DNA of 46,987 nucleotides, taken from the NCBI GenBank assembly GCA_022448455.1, contig JAKUUR010000002.1, positions 74,241 to 121,227 on the forward strand, read 5' to 3'. Below the pieces are notes generated by a model, which worked only from the letters and a program-made list of their open reading frames with translations, had not been told where the DNA came from and made no database searches. Made by a program: the position numbers and the translations under genes. The number at the start of each line of letters is the position of its first letter. Position 1 is the first letter of the stretch. This DNA is from Candidatus Thioglobus autotrophicus. GTDB taxonomy: Bacteria; Pseudomonadota; Gammaproteobacteria; PS1; Pseudothioglobaceae. Below, in pieces: positions 1 to 46,578 of this stretch.

Positions 1-665
1 CCAGCATTATCAAAAGCGGCAATATCGCTAACACCTTCCATATGAAGACCAATGGCACAAACTCTATCATCATCCAACACCGCATTAATAATATCCGAAA
101 TATTTGTATTTGCCTGATTGCCAAGAGTAAACATGTAGGCAATAGGTAAGCCAATTGACTGCATTGTCATATTTAGACCTATATTGCCGCTTTGAGTAAT
201 GATTGCTACACCCTTATCGAGGGCTTCACAGCCATGCAAGTCTGGCCACAAAACAACACTATCTAAACTATTAATAAAGCCATAACAGTTGGGTCCAATA
301 ATCGGCATCTTACCTGCAGCTTCAACTAGCCTCTGATTTCTTTTGATTCCATCTTCACCCACCTCTCCAAAACCGGAAGCATATAACACTGCCCCTCCGC
401 CTCCAATTTGGTTTAGATCAGCAACTATTTCTATCGCCGCTTCGGCATTAACTGCAATGAAAGTTGCATCTGGAGGCTCAGGCAAATCTTTAACACTTTT
501 AAAACACTCTAACCCCTCAATAGTCTCCCTAGATGGATGAATCGCCCAAATTTTACCGGTATAACCCAATTTACGGCTCTCTCTAATAGCAAAATCAGCT
601 CCTCGATGACCAACAACAGCAATTGACCTAGGAGATATCAGACGACTCAAATTTGATTGACTCAT
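1..665 (-). CDS. NDP-forming acyl-CoA synthetase, N-terminal part (cut by window edge)
   Basis: Translating the minus strand from the ATG at 663-665 gives 221 open codons that run off the left edge, so the C-terminal part is missing. The N-terminus carries the CoA-binding Rossmann start SPRSIAVVG (about residues 11-19). GPNCYGFINSLD and ITQSGNIGLN follow, typical of the succinyl-CoA-ligase-like domain of ADP/GDP-forming acyl-CoA synthetases. Enzymes of this family make an acyl-CoA from an acid, CoA and NTP through a phosphohistidine. The ATP-grasp part, often fused at the C-terminus, would lie outside the window. It begins 9 bp after the stop of the acyl-CoA dehydrogenase gene and is the third gene of a minus-strand unit with it and the thioesterase, so the substrate is probably the one those enzymes handle. 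The exact acid is unknown. Confidence 0.85.
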   Translation of the reverse strand, partial: MSQSNLSRLISPRSIAVVGHRGADFAIRESRKLGYTGKIWAIHPSRETIEGLECFKSVKDLPEPPDATFIAVNAEAAIEIVADLNQIGGGGAVLYASGFGEVGEDGIKRNQRLVEAAGKMPIIGPNCYGFINSLDSVVLWPDLHGCEALDKGVAIITQSGNIGLNMTMQSIGLPIAYMFTLGNQANTNISDIINAVLDDDRVCAIGLHMEGVSDIAAFDNA

Positions 666-35237: not shown

Positions 35238-35591
35238 TTATTTAATTAACCGACGAGGACCCTTGCGAGTTCTGGCGTTAGTTTTTGTTCTTTGACCACG
35301 CAAAGGAAGCGACTTCCTATGACGAATACCTCTATAGCACCCTAAATCTCTAAGACGTTTAATATTCATTGCAACTTCACGTCTTAAATCACCTTCAACT
35401 TCATACTTAGAGACAACTGCACGAATAGATTCCAACTGATTCTCTGTTAATTCAGAGACCTTAGTACTAGGCTCTAGTTTTAGCGTTTCACAAATTAATT
35501 TTGATCGGGTTTGCCCGATGCCAAAAATTGATTGCAAAGCAATTACAATGTGCTTATCTGTTGGAATATTTATTCCTGCAATTCGTGCCAT
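35238..35591 (-). CDS. rpsM: 30S ribosomal protein S13
   Basis: 117 residues (E. coli 118). [32 protein letters not shown] helix-hairpin; [20 protein letters not shown] and the [11 protein letters not shown] tail that reaches the P-site. First gene of the alpha operon. It is preceded by a strong promoter and by a leader that can form a pseudoknot. A GAGGTA lies about 11 bp before the ATG. Confidence 0.98.
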
Positions 35592-35612: not shown

Positions 35613-35646
35613 AAATACTCAGTAAGGGTGATGAGTATTTTCACCC
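35613..35646 (-). promoter_or_regulatory. Alpha-operon leader: interleaved hairpins able to form a pseudoknot (candidate S4 site)
   Basis: Reading the minus strand: GGGTGA (35641-35646), AAATACTCA (35632-35640), TCACCC (35626-35631), spacer TTAC (35622-35625), TGAGTATTT (35613-35621). Segment 1 pairs with 3 and segment 2 pairs with 4, so the two stems interleave as in an H-type pseudoknot. The last segment ends 21 bases before the rpsM start codon, close to the ribosome-binding site. S4 binding to a pseudoknot at this place is known in E. coli. Equivalence here is inferred from position and pairing only. Confidence 0.6.
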
Positions 35647-35673
35647 AAAATTCTATAGTTGAAAAATCGTGCA

Positions 35674-35702
35674 ATTTTACTTTGTAAATGAATACCTGTC
35701 AA
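35674..35702 (-). promoter_or_regulatory. Strong sigma-70 promoter of the alpha operon
   Basis: Minus strand: perfect TTGACA (35697-35702), 17-bp spacer, TAAAAT (35674-35679, 5 of 6). The predicted start at about 35667 is an A. It lies just after the rpmJ stop, so the alpha operon can be transcribed separately from spc. Confidence 0.75.
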
Positions 35703-35707
35703 TGTCA

Positions 35708-35821
35708 TCACCCTTGTCTTTGCTTGTGACGTGGGTCTTTACAAATGACACGAATCACTCCACGTCGCTTGATAATTTTGCAATCTTTACATATTTTTTT
35801 AACAGATGCTCTTACTTTCAT
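35708..35821 (-). CDS. rpmJ: 50S ribosomal protein L36
   Basis: A 37-residue protein. [20 protein letters not shown], then [17 protein letters not shown] and two stop codons in a row. Cys11, Cys14, Cys27 and His32 form the zinc ribbon, so this is the zinc-binding (C+) form. It starts 9 bp after the secY stop, its usual place as the last gene of the spc operon. Confidence 0.97.
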
Positions 35822-46197: not shown

Positions 46198-46509
46198 TTA
46201 GTTAAGTTGGATCTTTACATCAACACCTGCAGCAAGATCTAACTTCATCAATGCATCAACGGTTTTGTCTGTTGGACTAATCACGTCCATCAATCTAACA
46301 TAAGTTTTTAATTCGTATTGATCTCTAGCATCCTTATTAACATGCGGAGAAGTTAAAACGGTAAAACGTTCTTTCTTTGTAGGCAAAGGAATTGGACCCC
46401 TTACACTAGCGCCAGTTCGCTTAGCTGTTTCAACAATCTCTACGGCTGATTTATCGATTAATCGATGATCAAATGCCTTCAATTTAATTCTAATATTTTG
46501 ATTGCTCAT
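46198..46509 (-). CDS. rpsJ: 30S ribosomal protein S10
   Basis: 103 residues, same as E. coli. [47 protein letters not shown] with the long loop, and the C-terminal [29 protein letters not shown]. Also the NusB partner in antitermination. First gene of the S10 operon, only 85 bp from tuf. Confidence 0.98.
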
Positions 46510-46542
46510 CTGCCTATTTACCTTCTCTGACTTCTTAAACGA

Positions 46543-46578
46543 AAAAACCGTCGATTATACAATATTTCGACGGTTTTT
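46543..46578 (-). terminator. Terminator between tuf and rpsJ, with a -10-like TATAAT in its loop
   Basis: Perfect 12-bp inverted repeat AAAAACCGTCGA (46543-46554) and TCGACGGTTTTT (46567-46578), 12-base loop. On the minus strand the stem ends in a run of six T. TATAAT lies at 46554-46559 on the minus strand, overlapping the loop and the stem edge, but no good -35 is seen 16-18 bp upstream. Confidence 0.75.

Follow-up and report, generated by a model that had tools for sequence, protein, structure and literature searches.

A covarying hairpin in the alpha-operon leader of a Candidatus Thioglobus relative, with a candidate pseudoknot in one lineage

We have analyzed the stretch between rpmJ and rpsM in 46,987 nucleotides of bacterial DNA (the window). 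The reading that we favor, with a probability of about one-half, is that this stretch carries the alpha-operon promoter together with its 5′ untranslated leader, that the hairpin within it would act as a control element of rpsM, most likely an operator for ribosomal protein S4 or part of one, and that a pseudoknot formed by the hairpin loop would be an embellishment of the window's lineage. Compensatory changes among related leaders indicate that the hairpin (stem 1) is a real RNA structure, conserved within the genus.

The host of the operon is a relative of Candidatus Thioglobus. Among named relatives its S13 protein is closest to those of an uncultured gammaproteobacterium, at 90% identity, and of Candidatus Thioglobus sp. 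REDSEA-S12_B1, at 87%. On the minus strand the leader is flanked by rpmJ (35708-35821) and rpsM (35238-35591), followed by rpsK, rpsD, rpoA and rplQ. The order based on Pfam matches, secY-rpmJ-rpsM-rpsK-rpsD-rpoA-rplQ, is that of the canonical alpha operon, and the gene content downstream bears out the initial annotation of the stretch as an alpha-operon leader. Among the open-licence papers listed by literature searches we noticed no earlier report of the leader. The features are:

35702-35674, minus strand: sigma-70-type promoter of the alpha operon, TTGACA-17-TAAAAT (from sequence and family conservation)
35702-35697, minus strand: −35 element TTGACA, separated by a 17-nt spacer from the −10 element
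35679-35674, minus strand: −10 element TAAAAT
35673-35662, minus strand: discriminator TGCACGA and TTTTT, with the predicted transcription start (35668-35667) and initial T-run
35646-35641, minus strand: 5′ arm of stem 1, GGGTGA (RNA GGGUGA; sequence and covariation)
35640-35632, minus strand: hairpin loop and 5′ arm of stem 2, AAATACTCA (RNA AAAUACUCA; sequence)
35631-35626, minus strand: 3′ arm of stem 1, TCACCC (RNA UCACCC; sequence and covariation)
35621-35613, minus strand: 3′ arm of stem 2, TGAGTATTT (RNA UGAGUAUUU), the putative, lineage-specific pseudoknot partner
35609-35600, minus strand: putative ribosome-binding region of rpsM, GAGGUAUAGG, assigned by position
35591-35238, minus strand: rpsM (S13), first gene of the operon (Pfam PF00416)
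35228-34836, minus strand: rpsK (S11; Pfam PF00411)
34826-34200, minus strand: rpsD (S4), candidate feedback regulator (Pfam PF00163 and PF01479)
34190-33210, minus strand: rpoA (Pfam PF01000, PF03118 and PF01193)
33200-32787, minus strand: rplQ (L17; Pfam PF01196)

Counted from the predicted start, the leader has 76 nt ahead of the rpsM ATG, and the 3′ arm of stem 2 ends 21 nt upstream of that ATG. Relatives were compared in a genus and a family defined by the group codes of the genome collection searched; we take the family to be Thioglobaceae. Of its 83 genomes 74 hold rpsM, and the leader is readable in 73. The rpmJ-rpsM gap is 113 nt in 17 of the 23 genus leaders, and the pattern [GA][AG]G[GA][TC]ATAGG of the ribosome-binding region is present in all 23.

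All letters and coordinates of the initial annotation were correct, and the promoter scores 11 of 12 consensus matches. The match alone is not above chance, because the 501-base region contains two promoter-like sites against 1.9 in shuffled sequence, and its weight rests on conservation; exact TTGACA-16..18-TAWAAT occurs five times in the whole genome, against six for the reversed pattern. A slightly degenerate pattern is present in 73/73 family leaders; in 68 both boxes are exact (TTGACA, TAWAAT) and lie 16-18 apart. A T-run of at least four at positions 5-14 past the −10 box likewise occurs in 68/73. The comparison of leaders indicates that the promoter is conserved through the family. The predicted transcription start is upstream of position 35646, and transcripts are predicted to begin with G or A, followed by a U-run kept across the family.

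The pattern TAWAATNNNNSGNTTTTT has four exact matches in the genome, against three for a reversed control. Matches and related sites lie at 35662-35679 and 46542-46559 of the window (both minus strand) and in L177, L180 and L184. With genes outside the alpha operon named from their translations, the four matches precede rpsM, an S10-like gene (46198-46509), an rpmH-like start with an rnpA-like gene, and a Rieske-like gene. At the site before the S10-like gene an inverted repeat with T's at its end has the −10 box in its loop. In L184, what is presumably an S12-like start has CGCTTTA after the −10 box. If ribosomal protein transcripts share a U-run start, initiation that is sensitive to UTP or prone to slippage would be suggested.

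The evidence for stem 1 comes from 22 of the 23 genus leaders, aligned segment-wise; the remaining one, L119, has lost the 3′ arm and with it stem 1 through a deletion, and is a real exception outside the alignment. With the 3′ arms placed by eye by complementarity, which favors stem 1, 94.9% of cells in its eight pairs are paired, and five of the eight pairs have changed on both sides, giving 25 two-sided cells. The compensatory changes that the initial annotation proposed to seek in relatives are thus found for this stem. Neither the percentage paired nor the number of two-sided cells was reached in 2000 shuffles, while the number of pairs with both-sided change was reached by 8.75% and the number of pair types by 36%. 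With the 3′ arm displaced by 1-3 columns the pairing fell to 28.7-50.0%. In an open search of all column pairs stem 1 came first, and the next helix had one two-sided pair.

On a tree built from 1500 bases downstream of the leader, each of the five two-sided pairs shows 3 to 6 changes of pair state, and the stem 1 pairs as a whole show 1 to 6 each, non-standard states included. The near sisters L111 and L113, separated by about 0.014 changes per column, have G-C and A-U respectively at pair 5 and U-G and C-G at pair 6, so that both positions stay paired. RNAalifold, applied to a plain MAFFT alignment of the 23 leaders, missed stem 1 and returned only three pairs, in the coding part; the unequal loop lengths put the 3′ arms out of register.

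In leader-by-leader shuffles, from which L171-L176 were left out, 16 of the 23 genus leaders fold at least as well as in 190 of 200 shuffles. The window's leader is outside these 16, its fold being reached by 60/200 shuffles, and its nested fold is not unusually stable (z −1.09; z −0.5). As separate hairpins its two stems have energies of −8.4 and −6.6 kcal/mol (ViennaRNA). Folded as a single sequence, the leader buries its ribosome-binding region (mean unpaired probability 0.3), and a helix hiding that region does not stand out in the open search of relatives. Two further candidates from the open search were rejected as too weak: an outer helix joining the GAGG stretch to the sequence that precedes stem 1 (84% paired, one two-sided pair), and a start-codon hairpin of five pairs (90% paired, one two-sided pair). 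Pairing of the 5′ end with codons 5-7 showed no two-sided change in the open search of the genus leaders.

What might this hairpin do? Lying between the promoter and the ribosome-binding region, it may govern the translation of rpsM. S4 is a natural candidate for the regulator since it is encoded third in the operon, by rpsD, and it would act by feedback at the nearby ribosome-binding site. There is also a tentative case for a hairpin without a regulator, one that stabilizes the transcript or keeps the ribosome-binding site free while control resides in the promoter, through its discriminator and initial T-run; we put this below even odds. The promoter (73/73) and T-run (68/73) are indeed better conserved than any leader structure, and the sequences between promoter and ribosome-binding region differ in other genera. 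Stem 1 could serve mRNA stability, or nothing regulatory. Yet its compensatory changes suggest selection on pairing, and PMC10931766 and PMC7247131 describe feedback leaders as frequent in ribosomal protein operons.

Outside the genus the hairpin was compared in groups A2, A3 and A4, with g8 left out. Group A2 (nine leaders, eight of g10 and one of g6, seven of them distinct) has a hairpin at the place of stem 1, with 92.9% of cells paired and three pairs changed on both sides, as scored on the same MAFFT alignment from which the structure was derived; 12/500 shuffles reach that percentage and 46/500 the three two-sided pairs. With MAFFT and RNAalifold, A3 has no hairpin at the place of stem 1 but eight pairs near the 5′ end without two-sided change, and A4 has no pairs.

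Short reading frames were also seen near the rpsM start. In seven of the twelve leaders of group g5 (L134, L135, L143, L150, L156, L165 and L172), read by eye, a 10-codon frame (MKQTHVRGIR, for example) runs right up to the rpsM ATG. L130, L138, L155 and L168 have other frames there, and L153 has ACG in place of ATG. In L125 of the genus a second ATGGCAC start lies 26 bases before rpsM, with its own short frame overlapping the rpsM start by TAATG; it looks as if the start region had been duplicated.

The second stem of the window is a separate matter. As the initial annotation described, four segments pair exactly in an interleaved manner, 1 with 3 (GGGTGA/TCACCC) and 2 with 4 (AAATACTCA/TGAGTATTT), and using six pairs of stem 2 leaves a first loop of 3 nt (AAA) and a linker of 4 nt (TTAC) between segments 3 and 4. 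We scanned both strands of the window for six Watson-Crick pairs (at least three G-C) closing a loop of at most 12, combined with an interleaved second stem whose minimum was set at 8 or at 9 Watson-Crick pairs. At either threshold there is a single instance, at 35646, and the number per strand averaged over 20 dinucleotide shuffles was 0.05 for the lower threshold and 0 for the higher. Shuffling the loop and downstream stretch gave nine pairs, G-U allowed, in 0.04% of 200,000 trials. Stem 2 in the window alone is unlikely by plain chance. When the second stem need have only six pairs or more, five interleaved cases occur in the window (both strands), against 0.35 per strand in shuffles.

Is stem 2 conserved? 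The best match between loop and downstream sequence, G-U allowed, is nine pairs in the window, six in L105, L114 and L125, and three to five in the rest; stem 2 is down to three or four pairs in 8/22 leaders. Within the window's clade L105 keeps six pairs with unchanged letters (AAAUAC/GUAUUU), L108 and L106 keep five, having lost one end pair without compensation, and L104 keeps three. All four lack the UCA extension of the loop, and L105 and L108 carry ACUUAGUAUU where the window has ACUGAGUAUU. L125, of another clade, has six pairs of the same letters. In L112 and L114 five to six pairs form from other letters, a match absent from L110 and L116 of their clade. L111 and L113 differ in the loop (AAUAA against AAAAA) but share an unchanged downstream UUAUU.

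Across the genus, at least five pairs of some kind occur in 14/22 leaders, against 10.6 by permutation (14 reached by 7.5% of permutations), a weak excess. With the window included, the mean match over 22 leaders is 4.82 against 4.41 permuted (reached by 2.6%), and the mean duplex energy is reached by 1/300 permutations. Without the window the mean match is 4.62 against 4.38, reached by 12.8%. The initial annotation had envisaged a potential S4-type pseudoknot; conservation of such a knot is not supported, as stem 2 shows no compensatory change in the window's clade (L105, L108, L106 and L104). Of the two stems of the H-type pseudoknot that it drew, stem 1 is kept in relatives through compensatory change and stem 2 is not.

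From the losses within the clade, the loop change between L111 and L113, and the lack of the L112/L114 match in L110 and L116, stem 2 seems to be particular to the lineage of the window, possibly built on an older AAAUAC/GUAUUU resemblance. It could equally be a functionless product of chance, arising on that resemblance by tandem duplication of TCA in the loop and one downstream substitution, an origin compatible with the favored reading. The missing UCA insert in the nearest relatives, and the ACUUAGUAUU of L105 and L108, fit such an origin, as does the A+U-richness of leaders whose permuted partners so often reach five pairs. The rarity of nine pairs in shuffles speaks against it, as do the six, five and six same-letter pairs of L105, L108 and L125, the last in another clade. 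Under the favored reading, the loop has grown in the window's lineage and would have a further partner in the bases immediately upstream of the ribosome-binding region; the resulting H-type pseudoknot would embellish the element and not be its conserved core. A bolder version, which we hold rather unlikely, is that the Thioglobus-type alpha operon is controlled by an S4 feedback leader peculiar to it and unmatched at Rfam cut-offs, consisting of the covarying hairpin with a pseudoknot newly grown in one lineage. If true, a replaced ribosomal protein operator would have been caught gaining a pseudoknot.

The leader was compared with the Rfam model of the E. coli element, RF00140 (Alpha_RBS). 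The window scores 27.8 bits (E 1.3e-4), below the gathering score of 38, so that the Rfam check named in the initial annotation went against membership. The model matches 22 of the 29 genus genomes, which are 22 of the 23 with rpsM, and under stricter filters 24/83 family genomes; none of the 29 or of the 83 is over the cut-off. Its outer helix coincides with the segments of stem 2 in the window, and similarly in L022. In eight of the 22 genus loci, compared in detail, the helix is placed on differing segments (on stem 1 in L003, roughly so in L013, elsewhere in others), with non-standard pairs in six. Since the helix shifts between these loci while the rpsM start aligns every time, the sub-threshold score probably owes much to the rpsM coding start, which may not suffice by itself. 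This suggests that a sub-threshold Rfam match at rpsM is by itself no sign of the enteric element.

We take the complementarity of CGGGC in the leader with GCCCG in codons 2-3 to be the E. coli pseudoknot helix. The two occur together in 31 of the 78 named gammaproteobacterial loci with a found rpsM start; the enteric-type group was partly chosen after the leaders were seen, and the motif count was repeated over all 78. Of the 80 named loci 30 were scanned with the model. Eight of these score 77-105 bits (Vibrio, Shewanella, Paraglaciecola, Idiomarina, Frischella, Trabulsiella, Klebsiella and Rodentibacter), all with CGGGC and GCCCG, and six have no match at E 0.05 (L033, L035, L045, L046, L061 and L069), of which L061 has a 19-nt gap before rpsM. 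L025, L028, L047, L059, L072, L081, L084 and L088 score 39.1-49.2 bits, over the cut-off, without CGGGC/GCCCG, and are possibly diverged or false members. This pairing to codons 2-3 is found in 0/73 family leaders. A 6-nt Watson-Crick match to codons 2-4 occurs in 0/23 genus and 3/50 other family leaders (shuffles, 5% and 10%). Membership of RF00140 was rejected on the score, the differing segments and the lack of CGGGC/GCCCG.

The initial annotation had also suggested a diverged or convergent form of the E. coli element, in which the interleaved stems would be an operator trapped by S4. The stems do differ from the enteric CGGGC/GCCCG, as it had supposed; an E. coli-type knot is unsupported in the relatives, and we consider it quite improbable. 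Its appeal lies in the same place in the operon, the perfect and rare nine-pair second stem, the sub-threshold match whose outer helix coincides with stem 2 in the window and similarly in L022, the 22-leader means for match and duplex energy, and the other-letter pairs of L112 and L114. These are outweighed by the score below 38 bits, the shifting and often non-standard model helix, the absence of CGGGC/GCCCG from the 73 family leaders, the loss of signal without the window, and the leaders with three or four pairs.

How does the leader compare with known S4 leaders? According to PMC10931766, repression of the E. coli alpha operon by S4 goes through a site located at the ribosome-binding site of rpsM, which is itself part of the pseudoknot. 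In the window, by contrast with that description, the stem 2 partner is upstream of the ribosome-binding region, which lies with the start codon outside the knot, and the second stem is not conserved in relatives. The same source describes S4 control of a leader without a pseudoknot, that of rpsD in Firmicutes (B. subtilis). This leader differs from the window's in preceding rpsD at a separate locus, and in imitating rRNA through GUAA (PMC7247131). GUAA, the rRNA-like stretch of Fusobacteriales and Firmicutes, is absent between the predicted start and the ATG in the window's leader.

Ribosomal protein feedback leaders differ between lineages. PMC7247131 describes S4 leaders whose structures bear no relation to the E. 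coli one, and candidates in Clostridia and Fusobacteriales before rpsM-rpsK-rpsD-rpoA-rplQ, with S4 the most likely ligand. These candidates belong to other lineages; like them, the present leader is structured and precedes the same gene order. It lies before rpsM in an operon holding rpsD, and a conserved RNA structure, as a mark of S4-regulated leaders, is present in the genus in the form of stem 1 (lost in L119). A hairpin conserved at the place of the enteric pseudoknot would let the survival of S4 control without the enteric structure be tested directly in the Candidatus Thioglobus-related group. With the E. coli element of RF00140 the present leader shares its place at the head of the same operon and a hairpin before the rpsM ribosome-binding site and, in the window only, a loop able to pair downstream.
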